IMG/VR virus record: IMGVR_UViG_3300035204_002300
Coordinates: 1 to 48,445 of that record
From: a virus
Reading direction: 5' to 3' (one strand)
DNA: 48,445 nucleotides
Part shown: piece after piece, positions 18,268 through 41,500 of the stretch
Position numbering within the stretch: position 1 is the stretch's first letter
How the letters are laid out: each line of letters starts with the position of its first letter
Notes under the pieces: model-generated
What the model was told of the DNA's origin: nothing
Databases searched by the model: none
The model's input: only the letters and a program-made list of their open reading frames with translations
Made by a program: the position numbers and the translations under genes

Positions 18268-18283
18268 ACTAATAATTACACAT

Positions 18284-18311: not shown

Positions 18312-18329
18312 CTTATTATTTTATATATT

Positions 18330-18575: not shown

Positions 18576-18580
18576 AACGT

Positions 18581-18604: not shown

Positions 18605-18636
18605 GTTCCTGTAGTAATATATACACCATATTAAAA

Positions 18637-18665
18637 TTGAGAAATTATTTATTTTATGTTATAAT
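18637..18665 (+). promoter_or_regulatory. Sigma70-like promoter for signal peptidase gene
   Basis: Plus strand TTGAGA (18637-18642), 17 bp, TATAAT (18660-18665). The -10 ends ten bases before the ATG at 18676, so the mRNA would have a leader of about four bases and no room for a Shine-Dalgarno sequence. Confidence 0.7.
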
Positions 18666-18675
18666 TAGATAGTTA

Positions 18676-20846: not shown

Positions 20847-20854
20847 CACAAAAA

Positions 20855-20931
20855 TGGTACTCCCGGTTGGACTCGAACCAACGACCCTCTGTTTAGAAGA
20901 CAGATGCTCTATCCAACTGAGCTACGAGAGC
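20855..20931 (-). tRNA. tRNA-Arg (anticodon UCU)
   Basis: A 77-nt cloverleaf on the minus strand. The acceptor stem GCTCTCG pairs with CGGGAGT (two G-U pairs), the D arm has GTAGCTCAGTTGGATAGAGC, the anticodon stem TCTGT/ACAGA encloses the loop CTTCTAA with anticodon TCT, and the T arm is GTTGGTTCGAGTCCAAC. CCA is encoded. It reads AGA and AGG codons, which AT-rich phage genes use heavily. It sits four bases after the dehydrogenase stop and about five bases before the next coding start. Confidence 0.95.
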
Positions 20932-20935
20932 GCAA

Positions 20936-22677: not shown

Positions 22678-23648
22678 AATTTGTATTCGTAATTTTCATT
22701 TATCCCTTTATAACTTACCCCTTTAAGTTCATGACTATCCTTGGACCTGAAGAACATCTCAAAGGGCTTGTTCATTCCTCTCTCATTGTCCCTCCATTTA
22801 AGTATCCCGTTATCATCTCTCTCTAAATGTATATCATAATTTATACCCTTTAACAAGTCTAGCCTAGTTACGTATCCCCTCCTGCACATGGGCCCATGAT
22901 ACCTGTGTATTACTTCTGCGTCCAAATAATTTATGCTCTCTTTAACATAGTCGTAGGTATTTGTGACATATTCATTCACGAAAGGCATGATAGACTTACA
23001 ATTTTTACTATAAATATCCCGTGTCCACCACTGAGCCTCTGGGTGGTCCATGAGTCCAGCGGAAGCATAATAAGTTATTAAATCCCCTGCCCCCGTTGGG
23101 TCATAATCAAATAATCCGCCTTGAATGAAGAACTCTCTATTGGCTGCCCACGCTAAGCCAACGTGATACTTCTTAAAGTCGTGCCGATTTTGTTTATCGT
23201 TTACAAATCCATATCCCATGGTGGTAAATGACCTGCACTCTTCCTTGTCGAACACTCCGCTATCCATCTTACTCTCTTTTAAAAAGCGAAATTTACTACC
23301 TATCTGCAAGAGCTTACATTTTTCAAGTAGATCGCTTACCTTATCTGCCCAGTCATCATCTTGAATAAATATATCTGAGTCTAACCAAGCGATCTTTTGT
23401 ACATTAGGAGGCAATCTCTTGACTAAGAAATTTAACAAAGCCTCCTTGTGCCAAAGCACAGTGTCTGTCCTGAGTCTTAAGTATGTATCATCGCCTAATA
23501 GAAATTCATCATTGTAGAATGCGAGTTCGATCGTATATAATTTAACCCCCTGCCTTCTCAGGTTATCGCTAAACTCTTTGTGACGTTTAATTGCGTGGGT
23601 ATTTTTTGCATAAGAAAAAAAGCAAGTAATCGCCGCTAGGTCATTCAT
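22674..23648 (-). CDS. GT-A-like glycosyltransferase (DSD motif)
   Basis: The N-terminus reads LAAITCFFSYAKNTHAIKRH, and the metal site is IAWLDSDIFIQDDDWADK. Downstream are WAANREFFIQGGLFDYD, a loop with GAGDLITYYAS, and VIHRYHGPMCRRGY, which resembles the HxH-G-x acceptor loop of several GT families. 324 aa from the chosen ATG (23648, inside the upstream 3' end); two Met codons slightly upstream are alternatives. Donor and acceptor unknown. Confidence 0.65.
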   Translation of the reverse strand: MNDLAAITCFFSYAKNTHAIKRHKEFSDNLRRQGVKLYTIELAFYNDEFLLGDDTYLRLRTDTVLWHKEALLNFLVKRLPPNVQKIAWLDSDIFIQDDDWADKVSDLLEKCKLLQIGSKFRFLKESKMDSGVFDKEECRSFTTMGYGFVNDKQNRHDFKKYHVGLAWAANREFFIQGGLFDYDPTGAGDLITYYASAGLMDHPEAQWWTRDIYSKNCKSIMPFVNEYVTNTYDYVKESINYLDAEVIHRYHGPMCRRGYVTRLDLLKGINYDIHLERDDNGILKWRDNERGMNKPFEMFFRSKDSHELKGVSYKGINENYEYKL

Positions 23649-23874
23649 TATCATCAAAGCTAATGTCTAAGTCGTCATCTCCATCCTCTTCGCTCTTGTT
23701 ACACACCTGATCAAACGACATACATATCATATCAGCGCTTTCGTCCGAAAGCAAATTCAAATGCATGTCTATCTTTTGTTCTTGCTCATTATTTTTGAGA
23801 ATACAAATAACATACTCAATTCCCTCCTCGTCGAGCTTATCTTTTAGGTCATAAACAAAGTCTAATGAAGCCAT
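23641..23874 (-). CDS. Hypothetical acidic protein, 77 aa
   Basis: Starts MASLDFVYDLKDKLDEEGIE and ends in a run of acidic residues (SEEDGDDDLDISFDDNE). The middle forms a beta-alpha pattern (YVICILKNNEQEQKIDMHLN). A TATAAT sequence ends four bases before the ATG and no Shine-Dalgarno sequence is seen. Function unknown. Confidence 0.6.
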   Translation of the reverse strand: MASLDFVYDLKDKLDEEGIEYVICILKNNEQEQKIDMHLNLLSDESADMICMSFDQVCNKSEEDGDDDLDISFDDNE

Positions 23875-23892
23875 ATATATTATACTTAATTC

Positions 23893-24555
23893 TTATATGA
23901 TTTTATGCGGTAACTTGTAGAATACATGAGGGGTAGCTTTGATGTGAACAGATCCATAAATAGTAGAAGTTTTTCCCAGTAAATCTAAAATAATAGGCAA
24001 CGAACTACTACCTAAATATCTTTCTTCTGCATGATATGCTTTATAAACATTTTTCTCAAAAGTCTCAGAGACATCTAAAGTTACTACATCAGAAGGCATC
24101 GTTGGCCTCCACTTCTTGAGCGAAAAAACTCGTTTACGTCTAACTGGTATAGTAACTTTCTTCGGTATTTCCGTATCGGGAAATTCTATGAGCCTTAGCT
24201 TCATGTTTCTGTCATAGTCTAAATCATCATGTAGTCCAGCAAAATATTCAGACATGTAAACGTCTATGTTGGGATTATGAGGTTGAAATCCGAAATTATA
24301 ATATTCTCCTTCAATACCAAAATCGCACGGGTCGAATTGCCAGTGCTCTTCGTTCCAAGGATTGTTACCTGCATTTACCAAGGTCACTCCCTCGCAAAAC
24401 TCTTGGTGTTCAAGGAGTCTTTTAACTCTCGGGTACATATAGTAATTCTCTGTTACAACAAAATGTACTTTTTCTCCGTGCGTTTTGTGATACCAAGACG
24501 CCACGGGCCACAATAGGAAAAAGTCACCTATCTTACTTACGCTAGTAAAAATCAT
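23893..24555 (-). CDS. GT-B/GT9-like N-terminal domain protein
   Basis: Starts with MIFTSVSKIGDFFLLWPVAS, the first strand and glycine loop of heptosyltransferase-type enzymes (xxxGDxxLxxP), then GEKVHFVVTENYYMY and an aromatic-rich middle. At 220 aa, about two thirds of a GT9 enzyme, it keeps a second-domain strand (VVTLDVSETFEKN) but lacks the Gly-rich nucleotide-sugar block. It may be a reduced enzyme or a partner of another transferase. The glycosyltransferase call rests on the N-terminus. Confidence 0.5.
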   Translation of the reverse strand: MIFTSVSKIGDFFLLWPVASWYHKTHGEKVHFVVTENYYMYPRVKRLLEHQEFCEGVTLVNAGNNPWNEEHWQFDPCDFGIEGEYYNFGFQPHNPNIDVYMSEYFAGLHDDLDYDRNMKLRLIEFPDTEIPKKVTIPVRRKRVFSLKKWRPTMPSDVVTLDVSETFEKNVYKAYHAEERYLGSSSLPIILDLLGKTSTIYGSVHIKATPHVFYKLPHKII

Positions 24556-26292: not shown

Positions 26293-28245
26293 CTATACGC
26301 GAATTTTTCTTTTTCTTTTTCTTTTTAATTTCTTCCTCTTTGCATCTTTTTTTAACTTAAAGCAAATTTTATCAAGACCATTATGGGTGTAGCAGGATAC
26401 TCTTTGTGCGTTTACATGACTTAAGAACGCTATTTCGAAGTACCCTCTATGGCTTCCCGCCCCCTCCATTTTATGTATATCCTCCATGTCTGAAACATAT
26501 GGTATCACTCTATGTACGTGCGGGTTTCCCTCTACTATGCCGAAGTATTGGGGTGATGTGGCGACATATAAATTGTAGTCAGGATACTGTTCTTTTAGAC
26601 TGGGGAAGATACTCGTACCCATATAGACGTCTCCCGCACTTTCGGGGATAACATATAAAATTCTCTTTCCTCTGTCGTCTTTGTCTAGGAAGTCTTCTAG
26701 GCTTTTCTTCTGTGAGACTTCCTTCTTTGCTACCCCACGAAAGTACTCGACTATGCTCTCCCTGTCTGTCCCCTTATCTATTTCAGACATCCAGTATTTA
26801 AATCCTTGGTCGTTTTCGTCCACTTTCATGTCCAAAATTTTATCGTACAGATGCATCACCCACTCTTTATCTGGAAGTCCTCCGTTTATATCAGCGTCTG
26901 GGTTTTGTTGGGAGGAAACCTCGTATATACTTTTATCTAAATCTGGACGAGAATCTATGAACTCCTCAAACATTTTTCCTACCTGTTTAATAGAAAAATT
27001 GTCTATCACCCACTGTCTTGCTTCTTTACCTTTTAGAAGCCTCTCATCTAGGGGCATTTTATACACCTGCTCCAGCTTCTCTGCTATCGATTCTGGCTTA
27101 GTCGATGCTTTGATGAATTCAGTATTGTGCTCCCTGTACTCTGACCAGTCCAGAGGCAGGGAATGAGCACCCTCTTCGCACATCTCTTCTCCGCAAGAAT
27201 AATTCGTAACAAGAGTGATGAGCTCGGTTAACTTCGCTTCCTGTATGGGTACTTCCTGTCCTCCTGAAGTAAATGGGTGACAGTAAACATCCATTAAGTT
27301 ATAAATCTCATTAAGTTGAGCCTCCGTAGCACCTTGATGTATGTTTGTCGTATTCAGAGCCTTCTTCTCTCCGCAACTGGGACATTGTAGTCCCTGCCCT
27401 TGATACTGTGCCACAAAATATTCGTTGCAGGATTTGCAGGTATATGTACATAAAATCTCATTTTTATCTATCTTGAATTCATCCGCTAATTTATGTATGC
27501 CCCAGCCTTCGTCAAAGTGAGTATGCAACAGAAGAAAACTTTTGACCTCTGGGTTTTTCTCTTTAAAAGCTTTGTATCCCTCAAGCAAATTGGGAACAGA
27601 CTTCCTTAGTTGATTACGAAAAACATAACCAATTACAAATGCTGATGACGGGATACTAAATCTCTTTCTAATCTGGAGTCTATCATTATCCTTTAGGCGA
27701 TAAAATAAAGAGTCATCAAGTGGTCCATGCACCGTCTTCACATGTCTATGGCCTATCTCATTGAGAGACTTTGATGCGAAGTTACTCCAAACCCAAAAAT
27801 TATCGACCTTCTCGCAGGCTTTCACTGCCGCTGGGAGAATCGGAAGAGAATCTAGCGTGGTCCAAATGGCTGAGTTATTTTTAGGAAACCATTTCTTGTT
27901 TATGACGTAGTCTACTCCCCATATATCTTGGACGGCTAGATATACGTCGGGCTTTTCTTCGCGCATGGCCTTGTCTATATTTTGTGCTCCGTAACTAGCA
28001 AGCTGCGCTAGTTTAGGGTCCCTTTGGAATTCTTGTATTGCCTTGGGGTCTTGGGGTAAAGCTCCAATGCATTTCCAAGGCAGTCTCTTGTAAGAAGGGT
28101 GGTTGTCCGTAAGGCCACAACAAAAATGCACGATATCGTACTTTCCGGTATTATGAAGATGCGTTAAGATTAACCTTGCAACTCTTCCGAACCCGGTTTT
28201 GAGTAAAGAGAAATCGCTATGATAAAATACTTTTTTCTTTTTCAT
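26293..28245 (-). CDS. Multidomain GT4 glycosyltransferase with zinc ribbon, DUF4214-like and GT-B-like parts
   Basis: A GT4 (GT-B fold) enzyme occupies about 1-430: YHSDFSLLKTGFGRVARLI at the N-terminus, FVIGYVFRNQLRKSVPNLLE, and the donor site YCHPFTSGGQEVPIQEAKL with the ExxxxxxxE pair. Inside it is an inserted zinc ribbon with C270xxC273 and C288xxC291. Residues about 460-512 (HLYDKILDMKVDENDQGFKY; WMSEIDKGTDRESIVEYFRG) resemble DUF4214, a domain linked to extracellular or surface proteins. Residues about 528-585 (RILYVIPESAGDVYMGTSIF) start like a heptosyltransferase, but only its N-terminal part is present. A very basic tail ends the chain. The ATG at 28245 overlaps the upstream stop (TAATG). 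Confidence 0.7.
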   Translation of the reverse strand: MKKKKVFYHSDFSLLKTGFGRVARLILTHLHNTGKYDIVHFCCGLTDNHPSYKRLPWKCIGALPQDPKAIQEFQRDPKLAQLASYGAQNIDKAMREEKPDVYLAVQDIWGVDYVINKKWFPKNNSAIWTTLDSLPILPAAVKACEKVDNFWVWSNFASKSLNEIGHRHVKTVHGPLDDSLFYRLKDNDRLQIRKRFSIPSSAFVIGYVFRNQLRKSVPNLLEGYKAFKEKNPEVKSFLLLHTHFDEGWGIHKLADEFKIDKNEILCTYTCKSCNEYFVAQYQGQGLQCPSCGEKKALNTTNIHQGATEAQLNEIYNLMDVYCHPFTSGGQEVPIQEAKLTELITLVTNYSCGEEMCEEGAHSLPLDWSEYREHNTEFIKASTKPESIAEKLEQVYKMPLDERLLKGKEARQWVIDNFSIKQVGKMFEEFIDSRPDLDKSIYEVSSQQNPDADINGGLPDKEWVMHLYDKILDMKVDENDQGFKYWMSEIDKGTDRESIVEYFRGVAKKEVSQKKSLEDFLDKDDRGKRILYVIPESAGDVYMGTSIFPSLKEQYPDYNLYVATSPQYFGIVEGNPHVHRVIPYVSDMEDIHKMEGAGSHRGYFEIAFLSHVNAQRVSCYTHNGLDKICFKLKKDAKRKKLKRKRKRKIRV

Positions 28246-28805
28246 TACCACAAATCGTCTTCTGCGTCTGGGGAGAGCTCAGACGTTGTCGCTTCTTCGG
28301 CTTTTTTGCGCTTGGCTCTCGCCGCCTCCTTAAACTTCTCCTTCTGTTTCTTCTTAAATTCTTCCTGATCTCTGTCGAAGCACTTACGTAGTGCATAAAT
28401 CAAAAACTCTTTTAAGTAACGGGCCTCTGGAAAAGTAAAACCTATAGCAAAAGACACCTTGTTCGTCGAATCCGCCTTGTCTTGACGATAAATAGATAAA
28501 GAAAATCCTTTCTTTCCTCCTGCCTCATATGTGGAGAACTTAAGTTGAAGTTGTTGGTTATCGCTATTGTGAAAATTACTCCACTCCCTGCTGGTTTCTA
28601 TTGTGTCTATAATCCCTCCAATTTCCGTAGGATTGAGTTTGGCTATCACCCTTTTCTGAGGATTGTCTTTGTTCTTGGCAAACGGACTTTTGCCCGGGGG
28701 TGCCGCCTGTTTTATTAAAGATACCATGACGTTCCCGTCAAAATTAGACCAGAAGGAACACGCCGTGCCCGTGACCTTAGCATTTGGTTTGTAAAACTGT
28801 ATCAT
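28245..28805 (-). CDS. Possible single-stranded DNA-binding protein
   Basis: The 186-aa protein has a beta-rich N-terminal two thirds (QFYKPNAKVTGTACSFWSNF; GNVMVSLIKQAAPPGKSPF; QLKFSTYEAGGKKGFSLSIY), a basic coiled region (QKEKFKEAARAKRKKAEEA), and an acidic tail ending in a hydrophobic residue (DAEDDLW), the layout by which SSB proteins recruit partners. It directly follows the polymerase core in transcription order and has its own promoter. The family is not recognised with certainty; a whirly- or PC4-like fold is possible. Confidence 0.45.
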   Translation of the reverse strand: MIQFYKPNAKVTGTACSFWSNFDGNVMVSLIKQAAPPGKSPFAKNKDNPQKRVIAKLNPTEIGGIIDTIETSREWSNFHNSDNQQLQLKFSTYEAGGKKGFSLSIYRQDKADSTNKVSFAIGFTFPEARYLKEFLIYALRKCFDRDQEEFKKKQKEKFKEAARAKRKKAEEATTSELSPDAEDDLW

Positions 28806-28812: not shown

Positions 28813-28841
28813 ATATTACTTTATATCCTTTATAATGTCAA
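28813..28841 (-). promoter_or_regulatory. Sigma70 promoter for the SSB-like gene
   Basis: Minus strand TTGACA (28836-28841, perfect), 17 bp, TAATAT (28813-28818). The -35 overlaps the stop codon of the polymerase-core gene. The -10 ends seven bases before the ATG at 28805, predicting a transcript that starts at or next to the start codon. Confidence 0.75.
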
Positions 28842-31384
28842 GCTTCCTTTAGTTCCGAGAGCTTGGTATAGACCTTATTGTCTTGGATACTTATTAAATT
28901 AGCAAAAACTGACTCGTCTTTTTTGGTCCCCTTAACAATGACGATATTGCCCTTCTCTGGTAAGCCATTATTCATGGTCTTGCACTCTTTAATATTATCA
29001 TTAAACATTAATACATCTATCGATCCTCCTTCATCCGTGATAACTAATTTTATATATTTATTCTGATTTTTGGAAACTCTACTAAAAATATCCTCAACCG
29101 TACCAATAAACACAGGCCTCCTGCCTATCGTGAGCTCTTTAACCTCTCTAATTGAGGTAAGATTGGGCCTTTTGTCGCTAAAAATCTCCCTAATCGCTAT
29201 TCCGTAAGTATAACCGAGTAGCTTATTTTCATAAAACCAGTTGGCAAATCTCTCAGACTGACTATTTAACTGGTAAATCATACGATAGGGTTCTGATTTC
29301 TTCTTTATTGTCTGATATCTTGAACTTTTTATCGCCACTTTGTTATCGTTATCCTTAAACTCCACGAGCTTTTTGACTATTGAGACCAGATCATAGTCGT
29401 ATTGCTCCGCAAACCGCATTACAAGCTTCTTTTCTCTCTCCGTAAGGATATTCCATACCTGAGCCTCGTAAACGATCTTAGAACGAGACTGAGAGAATCC
29501 CTGCAAGGCTCCCGCTTGGATCAGGGCGGAAAGAGCTCCAACATTTAGCCCCGCCTGCTTGGATGCCTGAAATGTTTCAAACTTATTAGCATATTTATTC
29601 CTAAACTTATTGAGCTTTTCTATACTTTTATCGCTGATCCCCTTGATTGACAATAAGCCATACCTAATGTTTTTATCTTCAATTATAAAATCCATGTCGG
29701 ACTTCGTAAGGTGCGGCGGAAGCAGCCGTATATCAAATACGGATAACTCTTTTTGGATCTTAGATATCTCTGACGTCGGATCTGGCTCGTGCCTAGTCAT
29801 TTTTAAAAGGCTCAAGAAGAATTGCTGCGGATACTTAAATTTAAGGTAAACCGTTATCGCTGCAAGTGCGGCGTAAGCGATACTGTGAGACTTATTAAAT
29901 GAATAGTTTGCGGAGTCTTCTAAAATTTTCCACAGCACGTCACTCACCTGAGTATCCAGATTATTTTCTTTGACCTTGTCTTTAATTTTCTTCTTCCATT
30001 TTCTAACTTCGCTAACTTTCTTTTTGCCGACGATACGCCTAAGCAGTTCCGCTTCGTCAAGGGTAAATCCAATCTTGTTCGCCATCTTCATTAACTGTTC
30101 TTGGTATAACGCGACCCCACCTGTCTCCTTCAAGATATCATCGAAGAAGGGGTGTATCGGGTCATAAATATCATGATTGGTATAGTCTGCATACTGCTTG
30201 ACGTAGGCCATGGCTCCGGGACGAGCAAGGGCAAGTACAGCGCTTAGTTCTTCTAGGTTCTTAGGTTTAACCTGCTGCCCCACCTTGTGGGCCATATCAG
30301 CCTCTATCTGAAATAAGCCATGGGGAGTTTTCATGTCCTGTAAGTTCTGGTAAATGAGGGGGTGCTCCAGATCAATCTTGTTCATGTCTATACCTACGTT
30401 TTCACAAACGTCATGAGCGACAGATACTCCCCTAAGACCGAGCAAATCTAACTTGACATTAAAAAGCGAAGCCCAATTCATGTCGTAAGAAGATACTGAG
30501 TCCTTGTCTGAAGAGAGCTCCGTGGGGCAGGAATCATCCATAGGCGAATAGGAGAGAAGCATCCCCGACGGATGTACGCCTTTGTTTTTTATAAGACCCC
30601 TAAGCTTAAGTGCAATAGTATATACCTCACTGTTTTCATCACACCATGTTTTAAACTTATCTACTTCCTCGTAGGACTCATCTAGGTCTTTGACTATGCC
30701 AAACATCTTGGGTATCATGGAGGTGACCTCATTCATCTCCTGCTCTGATTTACCCCCGACAATCTTACCGCACTCCTTAATAAGAAGCTTCGTACTTAAG
30801 GTATTAAGCGTCAGTATCTTTGAGGTTTTGCCTTCAAATTTCTCCTCCAAATACTGAATTACCCTCTGTCTGTTATAGTAGCATATATCTAAATCTACAT
30901 CGCACATCAAAGTGCCATCAAGGTATGTAATTCCCTTAACCACTTTCTTCTTGGCTCTAATTTTAGAAACGAATCTCTCGAAATAAAGGCCACGCTTAAC
31001 TGGGTCTATTTTTGTTACCCCTATTAAATATAATACTAAGCTACCTGCTGCGCTACCCCTACCGAGTCCTGTAGGTATATTATTTTTATTGCAAAAGTTA
31101 ATAACGTCCCAGCAAAGTAATATATAATCTATAAATCCAAGGTCCTTAAGTGTTTGAAGCTCATACTTGCCCCTTTCTCCGTACTCCTTGTACTCTTTTG
31201 ATCCCTTTTTAAACCCTAACTTTTTAAACCCATTAGTACATAACTCTCTAAGGAAGTCATAATTATTTATGTCTTCGCTTACTCCTAGTTCATGTTTGTA
31301 TTTATTATCAATATCAAACGAAGGTAGTCTCACTCCGTGAAGCGGTAGGTCAAGGTCCTTGAAGTTTTCAGCGAAATTATTCAT
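28838..31384 (-). CDS. dnaE: DNA polymerase III alpha subunit, polymerase core (PHP domain encoded separately)
   Basis: A C-family replicative polymerase that starts at the position where the PHP domain of normal DnaE ends. The start is ATG 31384, overlapping the exonuclease stop (ATGA) with GAGG upstream. Visible blocks are PTGLGRGSAAGSLVLYLIG, the catalytic pair in CDVDLDIC (PDIDIDF-like), GVHPSGMLLS, the third Asp in VKLDLLGLRG, then ALARPGAMAYV, LYQEQLMKMA, SFNKSHSIAYAALA, the helix-hairpin-helix GISDKSIEKLNKFRN and a C-terminal OB domain (FIGTVEDIFSRVSKN; DEGGSIDVLMF). 848 aa lack about 270 N-terminal residues; these correspond to the product of 34323-35075. Proofreading would come from the adjacent exonuclease. 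Confidence 0.9.
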   Translation of the reverse strand: MNNFAENFKDLDLPLHGVRLPSFDIDNKYKHELGVSEDINNYDFLRELCTNGFKKLGFKKGSKEYKEYGERGKYELQTLKDLGFIDYILLCWDVINFCNKNNIPTGLGRGSAAGSLVLYLIGVTKIDPVKRGLYFERFVSKIRAKKKVVKGITYLDGTLMCDVDLDICYYNRQRVIQYLEEKFEGKTSKILTLNTLSTKLLIKECGKIVGGKSEQEMNEVTSMIPKMFGIVKDLDESYEEVDKFKTWCDENSEVYTIALKLRGLIKNKGVHPSGMLLSYSPMDDSCPTELSSDKDSVSSYDMNWASLFNVKLDLLGLRGVSVAHDVCENVGIDMNKIDLEHPLIYQNLQDMKTPHGLFQIEADMAHKVGQQVKPKNLEELSAVLALARPGAMAYVKQYADYTNHDIYDPIHPFFDDILKETGGVALYQEQLMKMANKIGFTLDEAELLRRIVGKKKVSEVRKWKKKIKDKVKENNLDTQVSDVLWKILEDSANYSFNKSHSIAYAALAAITVYLKFKYPQQFFLSLLKMTRHEPDPTSEISKIQKELSVFDIRLLPPHLTKSDMDFIIEDKNIRYGLLSIKGISDKSIEKLNKFRNKYANKFETFQASKQAGLNVGALSALIQAGALQGFSQSRSKIVYEAQVWNILTEREKKLVMRFAEQYDYDLVSIVKKLVEFKDNDNKVAIKSSRYQTIKKKSEPYRMIYQLNSQSERFANWFYENKLLGYTYGIAIREIFSDKRPNLTSIREVKELTIGRRPVFIGTVEDIFSRVSKNQNKYIKLVITDEGGSIDVLMFNDNIKECKTMNNGLPEKGNIVIVKGTKKDESVFANLISIQDNKVYTKLSELKEA

Positions 31385-32022
31385 ACCTCTATTTGCCATT
31401 TCATTTTGTTCCATACTTTTAAATTTAATTCTAGGTCTACTATTGCGTCATGCAACTTTTCGTAATTATGTTCAATATTATAACCCTTGGCTACCGCCTT
31501 CAGATTTGTCCTTAAGTTCTTCTTTCTTGTATGCAGAAGTTTATATTGATACTCCAGAAAAGATTCTGATTCCGGCTTGTATCTGAGGTCTAATTTGACT
31601 CCCCTCATTAAACACATCGTGTCTACAATCTTATCGATAAGATGCCGATATCCTTCTCCGTTTTTTTCGTACATGGCCTTAATAAGATAAATATCAAAAC
31701 CTAATATGTTGTGCCCCGTAATATAGTCTGCATTATCTAGCCAGTCTTTAATCGTGGCAAATATTTGATCATAGTACACCGCTTGCTTCTTGTGCTTGGT
31801 GGGGCTAAAACGAGTTATCCTTGCCGCATCTGCTCCCACGTGCAGTTCCCTGTCCCAAGAGATATGGTAATTTCTTTCGTCAACCTTATCGCCGTTCTTG
31901 GTTTTGATCATGGCTACCTGCCAAGGCAAATTATGAGAATGGTTTAGGCATAGATTCTCTGTCTCGCAATCTATGAATACCATAGTCTTACCCTTATCAA
32001 ATCTTAACAAATGTTCATCCAT
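31381..32022 (-). CDS. DnaQ-like 3'-5' exonuclease (DEDDh)
   Basis: Proofreading exonuclease family. Motif I is MVFIDCETENL (Asp18, Glu20), motif II is ITGHNILGFDIYLIKAMYE, and motif III is EKLHDAIVDLEL, with the His and Asp of the DEDDh type. 213 aa is a normal single-domain length. It overlaps the polymerase core by four bases, so the two are translationally coupled and probably form a proofreading complex. Confidence 0.85.
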   Translation of the reverse strand: MDEHLLRFDKGKTMVFIDCETENLCLNHSHNLPWQVAMIKTKNGDKVDERNYHISWDRELHVGADAARITRFSPTKHKKQAVYYDQIFATIKDWLDNADYITGHNILGFDIYLIKAMYEKNGEGYRHLIDKIVDTMCLMRGVKLDLRYKPESESFLEYQYKLLHTRKKNLRTNLKAVAKGYNIEHNYEKLHDAIVDLELNLKVWNKMKWQIEV

Positions 32023-32025
32023 ATA

Positions 32026-32934
32026 TTATTTTTTCTTTTTTTGTTTCCAGCTCTTTTCTGAAATCGTGGACCTAGCATACCAGCATTTATTGCATATAAA
32101 ATTCTGGTCCCCCTCTGCCATCTTAGCAAGAAAGTCCTTCATCTTCTGAGAATTATGTATCTCTGATAGCTTCGTGGTCAACAAGTTTCCCAAAATATAT
32201 TCTAAAGAAAAATCAGAGCAGCAAACAGAAACGTCCCCGTTGGGCAGACAAGCATTACTGTACTGGCGCATCGTAGAACAAGTAACTGGAGTCTTTATTA
32301 CCTTAGTTTGTGGGGCACGATCCTCGTCTAAATTACCGCCCCTATCATGCATAACTGCTGCCTTGCGCCCTAACTCTGGCATAAGGGATTTTCCTGTGTC
32401 ATTAAAGTAGCCGACCTGAGGAATGCCTTTATACTTATCTAGAAACTCTTCATATATGTCTTGAGGGATTTTTCTTTTGCTATCAGTTAAGTGTATCTGG
32501 ACGGGAATTCGTAAGCTAACTAATTTATCAATATCCTCGGATTTAACTGAGTACAAGGTCGTGTTGATGGAAGTCCTAAATCCTTGATCGACGGTATACT
32601 TTACAATCTCATACCAATTTGGGTTAACTAAAGGCTCTGTAAATCCAGTAAAATAAACATAACTTACTACATCTACATTGCTTAGTATAACCTTGTAGTC
32701 TTCTAGGGTCATGCTCTTTTTAGGGGTGTCAATGTCCTTGTAGCCCTTTATGTAGTTCTCTTGGGGACAGTAAGAGCACATCATCGGGCAACCCGCAGTA
32801 AGAGTCATCTCTATGTGGCTCTTTTTATAGAAGGGCTCCGATTTCCTAGTTATACGAGATAGGGAATCTGGAAAGGCTTCAAAGCCGTCCTCCCAGTCTC
32901 CAGTTACCGCATAATTTTCATCTTTATTGTCCAT
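32026..32934 (-). CDS. Radical SAM/SPASM-type enzyme
   Basis: The 4Fe-4S motif CPMMCSYC (Cys49, Cys53, Cys56 from the ATG at 32934) defines a radical SAM enzyme. The barrel continues with YVYFTGFTEPLVNP (GGEP-like) and FRTSINTTLYSVK. The C-terminus has a SPASM-like cluster: ACLPNGDVSVCCSDFSLEYI, then GNLLTTKLSEI and CNKCWYARS. SPASM enzymes modify peptides or carry out sugar/alcohol dehydrogenation, and the substrate here is open. The start at 32934 is preferred over a longer frame that would overlap the cupin gene. It lies between the two polymerase pieces and next to a cupin and a sugar kinase. Confidence 0.8.
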   Translation of the reverse strand: MDNKDENYAVTGDWEDGFEAFPDSLSRITRKSEPFYKKSHIEMTLTAGCPMMCSYCPQENYIKGYKDIDTPKKSMTLEDYKVILSNVDVVSYVYFTGFTEPLVNPNWYEIVKYTVDQGFRTSINTTLYSVKSEDIDKLVSLRIPVQIHLTDSKRKIPQDIYEEFLDKYKGIPQVGYFNDTGKSLMPELGRKAAVMHDRGGNLDEDRAPQTKVIKTPVTCSTMRQYSNACLPNGDVSVCCSDFSLEYILGNLLTTKLSEIHNSQKMKDFLAKMAEGDQNFICNKCWYARSTISEKSWKQKKKK

Positions 32935-32939
32935 ACTGA

Positions 32940-33302
32940 TTACTTCCAAAGTCTGTAACTATCCTCGTCCTTATGAAAAGTGCTAACTTCTATGATCGTC
33001 GTATCTTGCTCGTCTGCTATTAGTTTATGGGGCCTTCCCCTCTCTATCTCCACAGACTCCCCTTCCCCGACCAGCATGGAAAATTTATATGACTGTGAAT
33101 GTCTGTCCGCTAAACCGTCTATCATAAGGCTGCCCTCTAGTACATACATTGTCTCGTGCTTGCTTAAGTGATAGTGCATTGATGTCGACTTATTCTTTTT
33201 TATAAATAATATCTTTCCACAATAATCCTCGTCCTTATTATTTGCAAGCCAAATCTCGTGTCCCCATTCTTTCTCTACTTTTTTTAATTTAAAGGGCACC
33301 AT
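32940..33302 (-). CDS. Cupin, mannose-6-phosphate isomerase C-terminal-like
   Basis: A single cupin barrel with first motif STSMHYHLSKHETMYVLEG (metal-binding His, His and Glu) and second motif SVEIERGRPHKLIA (His). The opening KEWGHEIWLANN and the end IIEVSTFHKDEDSYRL match sugar-phosphate isomerase and nucleotide-sugar cupins. The ATG at 33302 follows the upstream stop by two bases. A role in sugar metabolism fits the neighbouring heptose-kinase-like gene. Confidence 0.75.
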   Translation of the reverse strand: MVPFKLKKVEKEWGHEIWLANNKDEDYCGKILFIKKNKSTSMHYHLSKHETMYVLEGSLMIDGLADRHSQSYKFSMLVGEGESVEIERGRPHKLIADEQDTTIIEVSTFHKDEDSYRLWK

Positions 33303-33304
33303 CT

Positions 33305-33562
33305 TCAATTACTCCAAGATAAAAATCCATAAATATTCATAGCTGCGATAACAAGCGACATTACTAATGTGGGGTAAGCTTTTTTATGTGCAGAATATCC
33401 AGCAACGCAAAGATTACCAACAAACCAAATGAGCCAAGAAGATACATACTCGTTAGCATTAAGATAATAACCAAAGATAACAAGTCCTGAGCCAATCCAA
33501 CCCATCCTTTCACAAACTTTATCGGCATACTCTTTCCATCCCTTCTCCCAGTCATCAATCAT
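33305..33562 (-). CDS. Small multi-pass membrane protein, 85 aa
   Basis: From the ATG at 33562 (overlapping the kinase stop as ATGA) it has a polar N-terminus (MIDDWEKGWKEYADKVCERM) and three hydrophobic segments (GWIGSGLVIFGYYLNA; SSWLIWFVGNLCVAGYS; TLVMSLVIAAMNIYGFLSW). The spacing resembles half of PnuC/YgjV-type small integral membrane proteins. Transport of a small metabolite is possible. The annotation is structural, not functional. Confidence 0.6.
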   Translation of the reverse strand: MIDDWEKGWKEYADKVCERMGWIGSGLVIFGYYLNANEYVSSWLIWFVGNLCVAGYSAHKKAYPTLVMSLVIAAMNIYGFLSWSN

Positions 33563-34326
33563 ATTGTCGTTACACCCCTCTTGGCGACTACTTTTGAGGC
33601 GCATTCATTTGCGTATTCTATCGCCGTATCTGTGTCCCCTACTCTCGTCATGGATACCGCCAGCGCAGCCAAAAAAGTATCTCCCGCCCCAGACAGATCT
33701 TGAGCCACTACTCTATTCTGGGGTGCGTATACTTTACCCATATACGAACACCCTTTATGCCCCAAGGTCACGATTATTTGAGCCGGCCTATTGTACTGGC
33801 TACCTCCGTGTTGACTAGGGTGTAAGTGGTGCTTCCAGTGCGCATTTATTTCAAGTTCATTCTCGTTTATTTTTAAGAACCTTAAGTTGAGAGGCAAGTC
33901 ACAGTCCATCTTAACCTTGTTGCTGTCCAAGTAAACATTATCATGATACTGGCAGATGTCGCGAATTGCGCATGAACGGAGAAAACCTTTTCCGTAATTT
34001 GAAACCAAAACCGCGTCATATTTATCCCAAGCAACCCCTTTGTAATCAAACTTATCTTCTGCCTTGTCGTTTTCATCTATTCGAAGCAGCATTTGGTTCG
34101 TTTTTATATCCACATATCTAGTTTTTAAAATCTCGTTAGAATGAGTAATAATATCGCACTCTACTCCAAGAGCTCTGACGTTAGCCTGTACGTTAGCTGA
34201 CATACCACCATTTTCTTTCGACTTGATAGGTTCGAATACTGGAACGGGTGCTTCCGGACATATCCTTTCGCAGTTACCGTAGACAAATACGTCCTTGCAA
34301 CTATCTCCTATTGCCAAAAATCTCAT
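33559..34326 (-). CDS. PfkB-family kinase, HldE kinase-domain-like (heptose-7-phosphate)
   Basis: The opening LAIGDSCKDVFVYGNCERIC and PEAPVPVFEPI is the signature of the N-terminal kinase domain of HldE/RfaE, which phosphorylates D-glycero-D-manno-heptose 7-phosphate for LPS ADP-heptose synthesis. ENGGMSANVQANVRALG is the substrate-binding block, and DLSGAGDTFLAALA near the C-terminus is the PfkB catalytic GAGD. At 255 aa it is a little shorter than the roughly 320-aa domain and has no nucleotidyltransferase half. It overlaps the PHP gene by four bases. GT9-like genes elsewhere in the window could use ADP-heptose. Confidence 0.8.
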   Translation of the reverse strand: MRFLAIGDSCKDVFVYGNCERICPEAPVPVFEPIKSKENGGMSANVQANVRALGVECDIITHSNEILKTRYVDIKTNQMLLRIDENDKAEDKFDYKGVAWDKYDAVLVSNYGKGFLRSCAIRDICQYHDNVYLDSNKVKMDCDLPLNLRFLKINENELEINAHWKHHLHPSQHGGSQYNRPAQIIVTLGHKGCSYMGKVYAPQNRVVAQDLSGAGDTFLAALAVSMTRVGDTDTAIEYANECASKVVAKRGVTTI

Positions 34327-35075
34327 GCGACCTGTTCCTTCCAGCTTTCAAAACAAAACTCGTCACTGCACATGTGATCAAAGTTTGGTTTATCAAGGGT
34401 CGTACGGTTGTTGATGCAGCGAAAAGTTAAATACGATTTAAAATCCTGTTTATTTTTGTAATATATGCTTTTTGTTTTTTCAATCGGATATTTACCCTCA
34501 CAAAATGCGCTCACCCTGTCAGCTATCATCTTATCAAAGGGTAAATTGTTGTCTTCTACGAAAAATGTAGGTTCAACAAAATCTAATTCGGGAACACAAC
34601 TACTATATTCAAGGGTGTTCCTAAATATAAAGGAGTCGTAGAAAGGCACGCAAAGTAATAGATCTTTCTCTGACCAGAATTCTCTTAAGGAGCTAAAGTC
34701 TATCCTAGGATAATAGTAAAATCCATGCTTCGATGCATGGGTATATATCTTAATTAATTTCTTGTATCCGTTGTTGTTCTTCGCAAATATAATATATTTA
34801 CATGTCTTTGACAGCGAGTCGGGGCTCTTATCTTCGCAATCATCCAAAATAGATAGTCTTAGGCCGAATCTTAAATTAATTTTAGCGTCTACGCTACTCT
34901 GATAGGCCTCTAGAAAGCCATTCATATTGTCTTCGACAAGATAAAGTTCAGAAATATCATTATCAGAACAGATATTGACGACTGAGTCTGTTGAGGCTTC
35001 CTTATCGGGGTCTAACGTCAGAATGCTTCTTCCGATGCTATAGTGAGATTTAAACAGAGGCAGGGCTCGATCCAT
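34323..35075 (-). CDS. DNA polymerase III alpha PHP domain (split from core, metal ligands lost)
   Basis: This corresponds to the first roughly 270 residues of DnaE. LPLFKSHYSIGRSIL aligns with the family's HVHSEYSLLDG. YLVEDNMNGFLEAY aligns with LTDHGNMFG. IIFAKNNNGYKKLIKI and HGFYYYPRIDFSSL match LLAKNEEGYxNL and EGFYYKPRID. The end INNRTTLDKPNFDHMCSDEF matches QTGKTLDDPNR...DEF. In the aligned positions the HxH pair is replaced (Leu/Lys) and the DH pair by acidic/Asn residues, so the PHP site is very likely inactive and the piece structural. The core is encoded 2.9 kb downstream. It has its own promoter. Confidence 0.8.
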   Translation of the reverse strand: MDRALPLFKSHYSIGRSILTLDPDKEASTDSVVNICSDNDISELYLVEDNMNGFLEAYQSSVDAKINLRFGLRLSILDDCEDKSPDSLSKTCKYIIFAKNNNGYKKLIKIYTHASKHGFYYYPRIDFSSLREFWSEKDLLLCVPFYDSFIFRNTLEYSSCVPELDFVEPTFFVEDNNLPFDKMIADRVSAFCEGKYPIEKTKSIYYKNKQDFKSYLTFRCINNRTTLDKPNFDHMCSDEFCFESWKEQVA

Positions 35076-35081: not shown

Positions 35082-35110
35082 ATTTTATAGTATGACCGAT
35101 TAAAAGTCAA
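35082..35110 (-). promoter_or_regulatory. Sigma70-like promoter for the PHP-domain gene
   Basis: Minus strand TTGACT (35105-35110), 17 bp, TAAAAT (35082-35087). The -35 overlaps the 3' end of the nuclease gene and the -10 ends six bases before the ATG at 35075, with no room for a ribosome binding site. It would drive the PHP, kinase, membrane, cupin, radical SAM, exonuclease and polymerase genes. Confidence 0.7.
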
Positions 35111-36089
35111 ACAAATCTTCCTCTTTTGAGGAACAATTTTTTGCAGGACAACCAGCATAGCTCATTTTTTCTACACTCTGACCATCCTGTATATCAAAAT
35201 CATTTTCATATGAAGACTTTATTCTCTTTCCGTCGTTGTCTAGCAGCACATAATAATCGAAGGGTTTATGAAAAGGACAAATCCACCCGCTTTTCGCTGG
35301 GCCACACAACCAACCATTGCCGTTCTCCGATGCGAAGTTCGATTTGCCATTATCTTCTGAAAAATTATTTATTATTTTATTTAAATGTTCGAGATATACT
35401 TCAAACCCTTTTAGTTCATCTTTAGTAAATTCTAACTCTTGAACGGGCTGCCTAGGGAATCTCAGAAAAAGAAACTGTACTATAATTCTTTTAAATTCTG
35501 GCCACAATTTTGTGGCTGCTAGTGCATACATCATCGCCTGTACATTCGACTCCAATTCCTCACCTTGAAACTTCCTTTTGCTAGACTTATAGTCTACGAT
35601 TTTTAGCTCTTTTTTCTTACTATACTTTATAGGCTTGTCCATGTAGCCATATATGTTATAGTTCGGCACGTCATTTTGGATCTTAAACTCCTGCTCTGGG
35701 CAATCAATTACCGCTCCTTCGTGACCAAAGAAGTTATGATTTAGTCCTATATAAACCATTTTATTTACGAGGTCGTGGTCTTCTTTTTCTATAACGCCCT
35801 GCTCAGAGTTCGTCTCAAATTTCCTCATATGTTTTAGGGCTAGGTTATAGACCGCTTTGCTACCCTTCATTGATTTTTTCTTAAGTATCGCGTCATAATG
35901 TTTCTTGTGCCTAGGCTTAAGAAGCAATTCGAAAATGAGGTGACAGAGACTACCTCTTAATGCCCCACTATTCGTGGAGTCAGGAAGCCCTAGTTGATAC
36001 TTGCACCAGTACTGCCAGCTACAAGTCTCTAGAGTTTTTATTCTAGACGCGGACAGGAACTGGCCGCCTTTTGATTTTTTTTGTGACAT
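35100..36089 (-). CDS. PD-(D/E)XK nuclease (RecB/Cas4-like), possible Fe-S cluster
   Basis: The N-terminus LSASRIKTLETCSWQYWCKY is the RecB-family S-x-x-LxxCPxxY block. The core has the catalytic Asp in YNIYGYMDKP and IVDYKSSK (D-x-K), and QAMMYALAATKLWP is the QxxxY block. Cysteines in the N-terminal motif and in the C-terminus (WLCGPAKSGWICPF; YAGCPAKNCSS) could bind a 4Fe-4S cluster as in Cas4 and AddB. 329 aa. It lies between the primase and PHP genes, consistent with DNA recombination or end processing during replication. Confidence 0.75.
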   Translation of the reverse strand: MSQKKSKGGQFLSASRIKTLETCSWQYWCKYQLGLPDSTNSGALRGSLCHLIFELLLKPRHKKHYDAILKKKSMKGSKAVYNLALKHMRKFETNSEQGVIEKEDHDLVNKMVYIGLNHNFFGHEGAVIDCPEQEFKIQNDVPNYNIYGYMDKPIKYSKKKELKIVDYKSSKRKFQGEELESNVQAMMYALAATKLWPEFKRIIVQFLFLRFPRQPVQELEFTKDELKGFEVYLEHLNKIINNFSEDNGKSNFASENGNGWLCGPAKSGWICPFHKPFDYYVLLDNDGKRIKSSYENDFDIQDGQSVEKMSYAGCPAKNCSSKEEDLFDF

Positions 36090-37001
36090 TTAAATTTTTT
36101 CATACCATGAAAGAACTTCATCCTTGGTCATATCTCCAAAATCATTTTTGGTTGGCAAGGATATACTTACTTGTTCTGTATCAAAGTGCGAAAGCAATTT
36201 TCTTCTAGCTTTTTCTGCGGCTTTATTGCCTGCAGAATTATTATACTGGTCATTGTTAAAGGAAATAATAACCTCACTTGGGTCAAAACGCAAGAGACAA
36301 CTTAAAATTGCCGGAGTAATATCTAAGCCGAAAGTAACTAAGACGTTCTTAACGCCGGCCTCCCACAAAGAAAGCATATCTCCTATACTCTCAATCAATA
36401 TAATTTTCTTAGAAAGCTGAATAATATCCCTATTGACCTGCAAAGGGTACTTCCAACTAGCCTTGTTTCCTATATGTTTCCACTTTGGTCTGTTTGATCG
36501 AGAGTTCTGGTAAACGTCCCTGCCGGAAACGCCTATTAACTTCCGCCTAGAATTAAAAATAGGAAAGATATAACGCCCGATCATCTTACCCCTTTCGCAA
36601 ACGCCCCCCTCAAAAATACTGAGGGTCTCGTTAGAAATTCCGCGCCTATTCCAATAAAAATTATTTTTTTTAATTTTATTTAGAAATTCTGTAGGTAAAA
36701 CCTTAGCCTCAGTTATCAATGGCTTCTGAATCGTTATCGAAGTTAAATCGATTTTGGAATTAAGGTACTTCTTCGCATCATCTATGCTTGATAATTGAAG
36801 AGACAGTTTAACTAGCTCCTCAAGGCTACCGGATATCCCCTCTTTAAAATCTACCCAGCGGCCTGTATCCTTTTTGATTCTTAAAACTGTATTGTTATCT
36901 GAATCTCTATATATGGGTCTAGCTCTATACTCCCTGCCGTAGTCACGCAAGTCGTACCCAATATCAGTTAAAATTTCTTTTATTTTATCTGAGTTATCCA
37001 T
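36090..37001 (-). CDS. DNA primase (TOPRIM, DnaG-like)
   Basis: Makes RNA primers for replication. The N-terminal region (YRARPIYRDSDNNTVLRIKK; TGRWVDFKEGISGSLEELVK) matches a CHC2-type domain, but without its zinc-binding cysteines. The TOPRIM part has KIILIESIGDMLSLWEAG (Glu), NVLVTFGLDITP and VIISFNNDQYNNSAGNKAAE. The second acidic cluster (usually DxD) reads NND, so the metal site is partly altered. It abuts the DnaB gene (three-base gap) and the nuclease gene. Confidence 0.8.
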   Translation of the reverse strand: MDNSDKIKEILTDIGYDLRDYGREYRARPIYRDSDNNTVLRIKKDTGRWVDFKEGISGSLEELVKLSLQLSSIDDAKKYLNSKIDLTSITIQKPLITEAKVLPTEFLNKIKKNNFYWNRRGISNETLSIFEGGVCERGKMIGRYIFPIFNSRRKLIGVSGRDVYQNSRSNRPKWKHIGNKASWKYPLQVNRDIIQLSKKIILIESIGDMLSLWEAGVKNVLVTFGLDITPAILSCLLRFDPSEVIISFNNDQYNNSAGNKAAEKARRKLLSHFDTEQVSISLPTKNDFGDMTKDEVLSWYEKI

Positions 37002-37004
37002 CTT

Positions 37005-38522
37005 TTATAGAAAATCATCATTGTCTGCTGCACCGTTGTCACTAATGTCATATCTTTCTTGCTCCCTCTCTACTATGTGCCTTAGTGACCCCTTCTCATC
37101 TACTCCAAAATTATTAACATCATAATTAATGAAATTGGGTGTCCACTTTGTAGATCTAACTTCTCTACCTGCAACCTGCTCTACAATGGTTCTACGCATG
37201 ATATCTTGGTGGCCTGCAGCATCTCTTCCTTGGAATCTGGTTTTAAGTGCTATTAGTTTGTGGGTTCCAAACTCTTCAGAATCAATAGCGATCTCTTCGG
37301 GGACCTTTCTGCGAAAAATGCCAACAAAGGAAGCAAACCATTGCAGCCTGTCTGACTGCGCTGCTGTCGACGAATCATCTGTGATGTTGGAAACCTTTTT
37401 ATTAAAATGCTCTCCACTTCTATTCTGCTGCATCGCTGTCAGAATCGGAGCTTCAATTTCTTCTGATATCTTTTTAAGTTTATCTATCTTCTGACCAATG
37501 GCTTGATACTCCGCCCAATTGGCCCCTATTTTCTCCCCAGTCATTTTTATATAATCATAAGCAAGGACGCATGGGTTCCCTCTGCCGACCTTAGAGTAAT
37601 ACCAGCGACGGATCACTGAGCATACCTCGTCAATACTCATATTACCTACAGGATAATGATAATAACTTTGATTCTTGCCGTCCATGTTCTCCCAAGCCCC
37701 TCTAATTTTTTCACACATATCTGGATCTTTTCTCCAGTTTCCCGTTTGGATGTACCACAGTGGAACACCTGACAGGGCCGATAACATTCTAAATTGTATC
37801 TCCTCTGTACTCATTTCCGTATCAAGAAACAGTGCCATTGTATTATTCTTTACCGCCGTCTTTCGGCAAATATCACTTAGCCAAGTCGTCTTACCCTCTC
37901 CCGGCCTTGAAATAATGGAGTAGATATTTCCCGGCAATAGTCCCCCAAACATACGGTTAAATTCTGGATATGGTGTTTGTAAGCCACTTTCATCTAACGG
38001 GTTGTTACCTCGTTCTTCTACCATCTCTTCGAGACCCTCGAAAACGTCGACTGGTTCCTGCCCGAAAGTATATGAAGAGATACGCTCGCTATAAATTTTA
38101 TCACTATTGGCTATGATTTCATCAACAGAATCATTAAGATTATTTTCTATGTATTTTTGTCCCTCTCCCAATGTCCTGTGAATCTCCCTGCACATTCTCA
38201 ACTTAGATAATTCCTGCGCACTTTCTAGTGCTGCCTCTTCTGTGATTTGCGTGTAATAAAGATCCTCTATATAATCAAAAATATTAATTTCATCTTTAAA
38301 GCTTATCCCTAGGTTTTTAATTTTATTTGCAATAAGAATCTTATCTGGCTTTTCATCATCTAGTAAAGACTGTTTAAGAACAGAGTAAACCGTTGCGTGA
38401 ACGTCTTGATAAAAATCTTTCTCTGAAAGAAAGGGATCGACATCTGGAAAAATATGCGTATGTTTTAAGATCCCGCTTAAGACATGCTTTTCTACTTGGT
38501 GGGAAAATATCTGCTTCGACAT
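37005..38522 (-). CDS. dnaB: Replicative DnaB-family helicase
   Basis: Hexameric replicative helicase. The N-terminal DnaB domain runs from HQVEKHVLSGILKHTHIFPD to the LYYTQITEEAA region. A linker leads to the RecA-like motor with Walker A SRPGEGKTTWLSD (205-217), FLDTEMSTEEIQFRML, the Walker B-like CVLAYDYIKM, and the Gln/sensor block ILTAMQQNRSGE. A Ser/Thr-rich switch follows (DDSSTAAQSDRLQW). The C-terminus is acidic (DNGAADNDDFL). The start is ATG 38522, with GTG 38525 as alternative; a promoter-like element ends five bases upstream. It should pair with the primase that follows. Confidence 0.9.
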   Translation of the reverse strand: MSKQIFSHQVEKHVLSGILKHTHIFPDVDPFLSEKDFYQDVHATVYSVLKQSLLDDEKPDKILIANKIKNLGISFKDEINIFDYIEDLYYTQITEEAALESAQELSKLRMCREIHRTLGEGQKYIENNLNDSVDEIIANSDKIYSERISSYTFGQEPVDVFEGLEEMVEERGNNPLDESGLQTPYPEFNRMFGGLLPGNIYSIISRPGEGKTTWLSDICRKTAVKNNTMALFLDTEMSTEEIQFRMLSALSGVPLWYIQTGNWRKDPDMCEKIRGAWENMDGKNQSYYHYPVGNMSIDEVCSVIRRWYYSKVGRGNPCVLAYDYIKMTGEKIGANWAEYQAIGQKIDKLKKISEEIEAPILTAMQQNRSGEHFNKKVSNITDDSSTAAQSDRLQWFASFVGIFRRKVPEEIAIDSEEFGTHKLIALKTRFQGRDAAGHQDIMRRTIVEQVAGREVRSTKWTPNFINYDVNNFGVDEKGSLRHIVEREQERYDISDNGAADNDDFL

Positions 38523-38527
38523 CACTA

Positions 38528-38572: not shown

Positions 38573-41500
38573 TCAGGCCGTCGTGCTGTCGCACACTTCG
38601 CCCCCATACTTTATACATTGAGCTCTTGTCATCGGATTTCCATCATGGGGCGATTTCAAAATGGTGTCACAACAGTTTATTAACTGTGTTTCTATTTTGT
38701 TACTATTTGTCCCCCCAGATGAAACAGTCGTTCCTGATGCACTGAGATTATGAGAGCTGGGCTCTCCATTGCTTTGCTTACTTGCCGAAGAACCCATCGC
38801 TGATGCCATTGATGTATTTCCTCTGCCCACGTTCTGCTGCATTGACTCGCTCATGGCACTAACTGCGCCTGAGCCAGAGGTGGCTGCTATCCCCATTGGC
38901 GGGCCACCCGCGACGACGCTACCAGCATAACCCCCTGACACTTGATCTCTATCATTGGCCGAAGAACAAACTAACATGGAACAACTTCCAAGATCTGTTA
39001 GCCTTGATAACTCGGATGCACTGAGAGGTTCAACAAACCTACAATTCTCCCAAGTACAGGACTTGCTTGATGAAATTAAGGTTCTTGCCCCCCCTACACA
39101 CGCGTTCCATACAGTAGCCGTCCCACCACCTCCGGGCAGGGCTCTCAGGTCGCGAGGGTACTCTGGATTCCCCATGAACAACCAATTTATATCTATGAAA
39201 CCCATTCTAGTAACAAGCCACTTGGTCACTGCGGAAACGAGTTCGTGCTGGATTCCCTTAGAGTACCAGCTGCCTGCAGCTAAACAAAATGTCCTAATCA
39301 TCAAACTCAATGCCGAAAAAGAACCGCTCCACTCTACTCCGGCTCCGGCACCACCAACTTGCGTGCCATCCTTCAGTCCTACTGCACTGCTTGCGTCGTT
39401 AACTACCCATGTGCCTCGACCCGTCACTTTCCAAATAGTTCTTCCTTCTTCTGCAAAGACGGATCCAGATGTCTTTCCATTGGATGACCAAAATTTTGCT
39501 TGTTTCTTTGGATCTTTAAAAATTGCATCTTTGTCCATTTCCGCCTTTAGGTCGGTTACATCTATTTTAATTTCCGGCTGGGAGAACAGGTAATGCTTAA
39601 ACGCGCACCTTAGCAACTTGTTTAAGATGGAAACATCTTTCAACATTAAGTTAAGTGTTGCCTGCGCGGGCTCGGGGGCACCCCGTACGGATGTTAGTTT
39701 GAGTTTCGTCGCTACTCTTGTAAGTATCCCTGCAACGCTCTCACAATTTGTACAGTACTCTTTTGCACCGCGATCCTTACCGGAGTTGTCTAACCAGCTC
39801 GTGAACGGCGAGGTACCGTACACGTTTGGCCCAGCATAACCGCTAGAGAACATCTGAAGGGCGGGGGCGACTTCTGAGTAAAGGCTTTGCATGTCTTGGA
39901 CCATGGTTTTCATGTTGCTATATCCCCCTCGGCTATCATCAAAATGTTTGGACCAGTTAAACTTATATTCATGTCCGTCCCAAGGTATCTTGTATATTAC
40001 TTCTGCGTTTGTCTGGTGAAAATACTCCTCAAGCCATAGCTTACCGCTGTCATTCGAGGAACCATAATGCGGATTATGTATAGCTGCCCAATCAGAGAGT
40101 AATGTTCTTATCCGCCTATCTGCCCCCATGAGAGGTTTCAATATCGTGTCTGCCTTTAGTACATGGTCCGAATATACCCCTTGGTAGTGCGGTTGATTTA
40201 GACCGGTCCTGAGGGGAGTTTGCGGCCCGGGGCAAGTCTGCGTCATATGCGCCGGTTGCATTTTAGAACTATAACATAAACACCCGAAAAACCGATGCGC
40301 ACATGGCCATACTATATCGTCTACCCCTTGTGCATTTTCTTCTATATTAAACCATGGTCTGTGCTCTCTATATTTCACCCAATAATCGTCAAATGAACAT
40401 TTTTTTATTTTGTCCGCCGTTGTCCCGTTACCGCCCTGCCCAACTTCACCGAGAGCAAGGCATTCCGTATAGCACTCTATTGGAATTGAACGAAGGGGGA
40501 TGCACCCATCGGTCTCACCGTCGGCAATAGGCCAACTCGTCGTGCAGTTCCCGCCGGCTTTATCACATGCGGCTATGTCATCTAGCATCTTCCTCGCATC
40601 ATCAATAGCACTTCCTATCGGCCCATGAGCCAGTAGTTCATTATACAATACCCAAAACCATTTTTGGTTGCACCAGTTATTATATGGTTTTGTAACGTTA
40701 GCAAGACCGCCAAAGTATCCCGCGGCCCTTCCCGGGTCTGCGAAACAATAAGTAGTCCAGTCCCTACCGGGAGGCATGAACATATAGTTCCCACACTTTT
40801 TACAACCAAGCGCGGCCTTTCCAAGATTTTTGTAAGTATCCTTTGATTGATATTCCCACCCGGGGACAGGAAGGTGTGAATAACCACCGGGGATATTACC
40901 TAGGGTGGAATATGAGTCGCTGTGGCCGGCGTACGGGGTTTGATCCATAGACACGGGGTTTTCGTAAGCCTTTGTACCCAAATAAGTACATGTTCCCTTG
41001 AGTAAAGCGCAACCGTTTGCCAAAGACCACCAACGAGATATGTGGTCAAAATATGTCTGCGTATAATAATTCCATTTTACCCAAGCTCTTTCGCAAGCGT
41101 CTCCCTCTTCTTCGGGGCTATCCCAAGTCAAGTCACAGGTGTGTAGCGTATCCATCCATTCTGGTCTTAGACTCGTGCTCGTACTTTTCCACCCGAGCTT
41201 GCCCCTGACGAAATCGAAACCATTTACTGCCGCTTTGACACCTTTATCGACTTTATCAACCCCCCAAGATAATGGCCTACCGACGAGTGGAGTGTGGGCT
41301 AATGCTTCCGTGAACCAACCTCCCTTTGGCGTCTTAACAATGAAATCAGCTAGATCGCTGACAGCGGCGTCGTATTCGGCTTGAGCTGCAGGGCCCAGAG
41401 TTTGTGGTTTGCCATGCTCGTTCACTCCTATCACTCCCTTTTCGTAACCACCGAAACCAATTGTATTAATGCAATGTTCAACAAAGGGCCGCACGTCATC

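Follow-up and report, generated by a model that had tools for sequence, protein, structure and literature searches.

The window analysed here, a 48,445-base virus record from IMG/VR that constitutes a linear fragment, carries its replication genes on the minus strand, and among these the alpha subunit of a DnaE-type DNA polymerase III (Pol III) is encoded in two separate pieces, a degenerate PHP domain and a polymerase core. The minus-strand order is DnaB helicase, primase, RecB-like nuclease, PHP, kinase, PnuC-like membrane protein, cupin, radical SAM protein, exonuclease and polymerase core, with the following features:

37005–38525, minus strand: DnaB-like replicative helicase (PF03796, E 4.4e-21; phrog_19, E 5.9e-55)
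36090–37001, minus strand: DnaG-like primase with Toprim domain (phrog_47, E 2.1e-27)
35100–36089, minus strand: PD-(D/E)XK (RecB-like) nuclease, conserved upstream neighbour (PF12705, E 3.3e-19; phrog_69)
34323–35075, minus strand: stand-alone degenerate PHP domain of Pol III alpha, 250 aa (PF02811, phrog_405, TIGR00594, Foldseek)
33559–34326, minus strand: PfkB/HldE-kinase-like protein, cargo (PF00294, E 1.4e-15; TIGR02198, E 4.1e-32; phrog_8133, E 9.5e-71)
33305–33604, minus strand: PnuC-like membrane protein, cargo, C-terminal part of the family only (PF04973, E 2.5e-9, positions 117–174 of 175)
32940–33308, minus strand: cupin, cargo (PF07883, PF07385, phrog_7851)
32026–32949, minus strand: radical SAM protein with SPASM domain, cargo (PF13186, PF04055, NF033640)
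31381–32022, minus strand: DnaQ/epsilon-like 3'-5' exonuclease (PF00929 (RNase_T), E 1.2e-12; phrog_192, E 3.1e-21; NF004964, E 5.9e-13)
28838–31384, minus strand: Pol III alpha polymerase core without PHP, comprising palm, fingers, HHH and OB (PF07733, PF17657, PF14579, TIGR00594, fold)
28245–28805, minus strand: conserved downstream neighbour, 186 aa (no family match; follows the core in almost every locus)

The PHP and core genes each possess their own start and stop. The kinase start overlaps the PHP stop as ATGA, and the core ATG at 31384 overlaps the exonuclease stop in the same manner; an alternative in-frame ATG for the core is found at 31414, and relatives favour a start in the region of 31384.

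The two pieces correspond to successive parts of one alpha subunit. The initial annotation assigned the product of 34323–35075 to the PHP region of DnaE, and this was substantiated by profile matches to the Pfam PHP family (PF02811, E 1.3e-10), phrog_405 (positions 62–294, E 1.4e-17) and TIGR00594 (positions 32–245, E 7.6e-13) as well as by the predicted fold; the match to Taq alpha covers 97–254 (E 2.7e-8). Likewise, the product of 28838–31384, proposed to supply the rest of alpha after the PHP domain, matched phrog_405 at positions 303–1090 (E 8e-155), TIGR00594 at positions 275–1022 (E 2e-130) and Taq alpha at 385–954 (E 1e-86). In combination, PHP piece and core tile a single DnaE profile without overlap, for TIGR00594 as well as for phrog_405, and the core alone scores 436.7 bits on TIGR00594 (cut-off 434.35). 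After the palm its domains follow the DnaE order PF07733, PF17657, PF14579 and OB, the OB match lying under its Pfam cut-off.

An AlphaFold2 model of the PHP piece, built from 45 family sequences, reached a mean predicted local distance difference test score (pLDDT) of 83.9 and a predicted template-modelling (TM) score of 0.83, and its best PDB matches in Foldseek were the PHP domains of Pol III alpha subunits, including the E. coli alpha–epsilon chimera 4gx9 (E 5.9e-14) and Taq alpha 2hpi (TM score 0.77 on the query). The core model (mean pLDDT 80.4) matched the alpha subunits of M. tuberculosis, Taq and E. coli, with a best E of 1.9e-34. Among predicted viral structures, the matches of the PHP model were mostly longer DnaE proteins or their pieces, and no stand-alone protein of similar length aligning across the whole PHP domain was found there. 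The break coincides with the PHP/palm linker, at approximately residues 249–259 of E. coli alpha.

Scans of IMG/VR with the PHP and core sequences, together with one of genome contigs, retrieved more than 200 loci of the same family. Both genes were carried by 202 of these, and in all 202 they were split, with no fused case and with the exonuclease gene between the pieces; the covalently attached N-terminal PHP domain typical of DnaE-type enzymes is accordingly a separate gene throughout. By PHP sequence, 149 of the 202 loci are distinct, with PHP identity down to 36%. A further 21 family loci show just one of the two genes, mostly through a contig end. The split proposed from this one genome was thus recovered in every relative carrying both genes; rather than being peculiar to one genome, the PHP/core break is ancestral and fixed throughout a large clade of phages. 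The split cores constitute a single clade with support of 100/99 on a long stem, and the examined fused relatives as well as E. coli DnaE fall outside it; a single fission in the common ancestor is therefore the simplest reading and fits best. The GenBank phage matches listed for the core share only ~25–32% identity and none reaches 60%, so that no searched annotated phage record appears to be a close clade member, although records very near the window were possibly excluded.

An attempt to identify hosts from bacterial and archaeal genomes gave 11 matches, of mixed phyla and all but one titled as metagenome-assembled, which are best explained as phage contigs that entered the bins by chance. 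The clade members concerned (L113–L123) occur in metagenome-assembled genomes carrying the labels Flavobacteriaceae, Verrucomicrobiales, Halobacteriovorax, Woesebacteria and a Lokiarchaeote, and are probably misbinned phage contigs.

Five genes had been described between the pieces, an HldE-like kinase, a membrane protein, a cupin, a radical SAM enzyme and the exonuclease, and family matches confirmed each identity; the exonuclease is, however, the only constant intervening gene, and the other four are extra, variable cargo. The kinase is absent from its window position in other loci, and a cupin lies between PHP and exonuclease in 16 of them. In the shortest arrangement the exonuclease gene alone separates the pieces (~600 bases), and in locus L074 PHP and core lie at a distance of 9.4 kb. 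Insertion hot spots flank the exonuclease gene: extra sequence was present between PHP and exonuclease in half of 146 loci, and between exonuclease and core also in half.

Active PHP proofreading nucleases carry the metal-ligand motif HHDHEH(C/H)DH (PMC12926913). Across 137 distinct PHPs of the family this motif was not retained, as ligands have been lost at 8 of 9 positions and only the third, Asp49 (D49), is largely preserved. Nothing is left of the HxH segment, and the remaining ligand positions are mainly occupied by Asn/Ser, Arg, Lys, Phe, Ser and Tyr/Phe; the loss is hence more extensive than the missing HxH and DH ligands first reported. The DEDDh residues of the exonuclease (D18, E20, D110, H191 and D196) are invariant where aligned, as are the core aspartates D172, D174 and D323 (a DxD plus a third aspartate, numbered from 31414) in all aligned cores. 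Proofreading would therefore have to rest on the exonuclease, and the PHP domain appears to be kept for something other than nuclease activity. The exonuclease stops ~17 residues past its last catalytic residue and has no epsilon-like C-terminal tail, the part through which the E. coli protein contacts PHP and clamp.

The genes for PHP, exonuclease and core are all under strong purifying selection, with a median ratio of non-synonymous to synonymous substitution rates (dN/dS) in close pairs of 0.067, 0.057 and 0.071, respectively. A destroyed metal site could suggest a PHP gene in decay, yet the gene is intact and its dN/dS refutes this. A sequencing frameshift as the cause of the break was already rejected in the initial annotation; a frameshift or misassembly is excluded by the 202 split loci, the 149 distinct ones stemming from many metagenomes, and whole genes lie between the pieces. 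Remnant and artefact are accordingly left with next to no probability.

In cyanobacteria the replicase alpha subunit is likewise encoded in two genes, DnaE being split by an intein and trans-spliced (mentioned in PMC3919608), and it could be asked whether the phage pieces are joined after expression into one chain by protein or RNA trans-splicing. Intein-like N- and C-halves do split the core gene in a few relatives. At one site, FNK/SHS, they occur in five distinct contigs (L105 being identical to L172), and at a second, GRG/SAAGS, inside the GRGSAAGS motif, in one; all were recognized by sequence pattern:

L105, 7998–11539: core broken at FNK/SHS
L112, 8013–10971: core broken at FNK/SHS
L114, 11620–14604: core broken at FNK/SHS
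L126, 3717–6698: core broken at FNK/SHS
L146, 6573–9629: core broken at FNK/SHS
L226, 5962–9039: core split at GRG/SAAGS

At FNK/SHS the N-half begins with Cys and the C-half ends ...SN ahead of SHS, and in L105 the N-half runs on into a homing-endonuclease-like stretch. The site lies a few residues from what we take to be the position of the cyanobacterial DnaE split intein. These split halves suggest that trans-splicing occurs in the clade, within the core gene and away from the PHP/core break. At the break itself the alignments revealed no intein halves, either at the PHP end or at the core beginning, an Rfam search found no intron family around it, and each gene has its separate start and stop. 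The earlier statement that no intein is present and that the break point differs from the cyanobacterial one therefore stands, and joining of the two pieces into one chain is very improbable.

The wider genome context was assessed in seven relatives' contigs of 136–178 kb, each of which contains one C-family core (PF07733). The largest, of 178 kb, encodes a terminase, a baseplate wedge-like protein, rIIA, ribonucleotide reductase, DNA ligase and IMP dehydrogenase, and probably represents a large tailed phage with a contractile tail. A second full-length polymerase had been named as the finding that would undermine the proposal; in these contigs neither another C-family enzyme nor a family A or B polymerase was detected. 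This bears on the possibility that another main replicase exists and leaves the split enzyme with a secondary task, repair for example; precedent comes from jumbo phages in which a minimal split Pol III alpha accompanies a family B polymerase (Iyer et al. 2021, PMC7824862). Given the single core per contig and the location of the split genes next to helicase and primase, a side role is improbable. No bacterial beta clamp was found in the same contigs either, and for the clamp loader one weak clamp-loader-like match was obtained, below cut-off; contig completeness is not given, and these absences are consequently not proof.

Elsewhere in the window, positions 6644–24555 hold a long run of sugar/glycan genes (glycosyltransferase, nucleotide-sugar epimerase, UDP-glucose dehydrogenase-like and 2OG-Fe oxygenase), with a tRNA-Arg (tct) gene at 20855–20931. 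Open reading frames of 2190 and 837 aa at 38573–45145 and 45219–47732 had no PHROG match. The position of the 186-aa protein (28245–28805) beside the core suggests a replication role such as single-stranded DNA binding.

The closest known parallel is offered by the alpha–epsilon complex of E. coli, which has the same domains and the same catalytic residues, an inactive PHP domain and, as in the phage, a separate DEDDh exonuclease. The phage system differs in that the PHP domain is a gene of its own, that the exonuclease lacks the C-terminal tail with which epsilon wraps the E. coli PHP domain, and that no C-terminal tau-binding region is evident. The gene order recalls the PHP/exonuclease/polymerase order of PolC, whose PHP domain harbours the exonuclease domain as an insertion, whereas the C-terminal order of HHH and OB as well as the profile scores are those of the DnaE type. 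DnaE is likewise found in pieces in the Bacillus phages Jayan and KLEB27-3, Rossellomorea phage phiT1 and Alicyclobacillus phage KKP_3916. However, these four break inside the polymerase region and leave PHP joined to palm sequence: near E. coli residue ~400 in Jayan and ~396 in KKP_3916 (range for both ~396–407), at residues 574–584 in phiT1, and at 612–628 in KLEB27-3, where an HNH endonuclease gene occupies the gap. In group 2.2 jumbo phages Pol III alpha is also split into stand-alone proteins, there with the catalytic core divided between its nucleoside triphosphate-binding and its DNA/Mg-binding parts, in an enzyme that lacks the other Pol III domains and exists beside a family B polymerase (PMC7824862).

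We think it quite probable that the replicase of this clade is made as three separate proteins, a dead PHP domain, a DEDDh exonuclease and a DnaE-type core, which would assemble without covalent joining. The arrangement would have arisen by gene fission at the PHP/palm linker in the common ancestor and placement of the exonuclease gene between the pieces, giving the order PHP–exonuclease–core. The PHP subunit may dock on the core in the manner of fused alpha, thereby stabilizing it, and may hold the exonuclease near the DNA exit, while the short overlaps of neighbouring genes could help balanced synthesis. Precedent is provided by E. coli, where the inactive PHP domain, which is free of metal, contributes to the stability and activity of the polymerase as a whole (PMC3666897) and where alpha 1–270 or 1–285 alone is well behaved and fully exonuclease-binding (PMC3642679).

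Several observations weigh against such an assembly. The E. coli fragment 1–255, cut close to the phage break, is insoluble (PMC3642679), and the phage PHP must therefore have adapted or need a partner. As the exonuclease extends no further than its catalytic domain, it must dock in another way than E. coli epsilon. Co-variation between PHP and core, compared with control gene pairs, gave no signal above the controls (~33 effective sequences), and the available contigs represent fragments from phages that have not been cultured. The missing co-variation would equally suit a PHP that no longer joins the core, acting solely as exonuclease adaptor or as captor of host epsilon or alpha while the core works alone; the autonomous exonuclease binding of the E. 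coli fragment and the spacing of more than 9 kb in L074 point the same way. Still, PHP and core co-occur in every locus long enough for both and show comparable conservation by dN/dS, and host capture is at odds with the phage's own exonuclease being encoded beside PHP. We consider this alternative unlikely. Most likely, by analogy with E. coli, the phage PHP docks back onto the core and holds the exonuclease in position. The more specific picture of a phage lineage with a three-part Pol III core, in which PHP would be an obligate non-catalytic scaffold for a tail-less proofreader, possibly without a recognised sliding clamp, has about even chances of being correct.

Fission of DnaE in phages is already known, and what sets the present case apart is where the break lies, that it is fixed throughout a clade, and its relevance to what PHP does. 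No description of a PHP/core split of DnaE was found in searches of an open-access library, and an earlier mention may exist elsewhere. The split marks a large phage group without a close relative among the searched annotated phage records. Bacterial replicative polymerases strictly conserve the PHP domain, including those whose PHP is no longer an active nuclease (PMC3666897), and the reason for its retention is not settled. Here it has been cut free and its metal site is dead, and it is still strongly selected; the scaffold question therefore becomes directly testable by adding or omitting one protein. The clade thus provides a ready-made split replicase and a natural test of PHP function.
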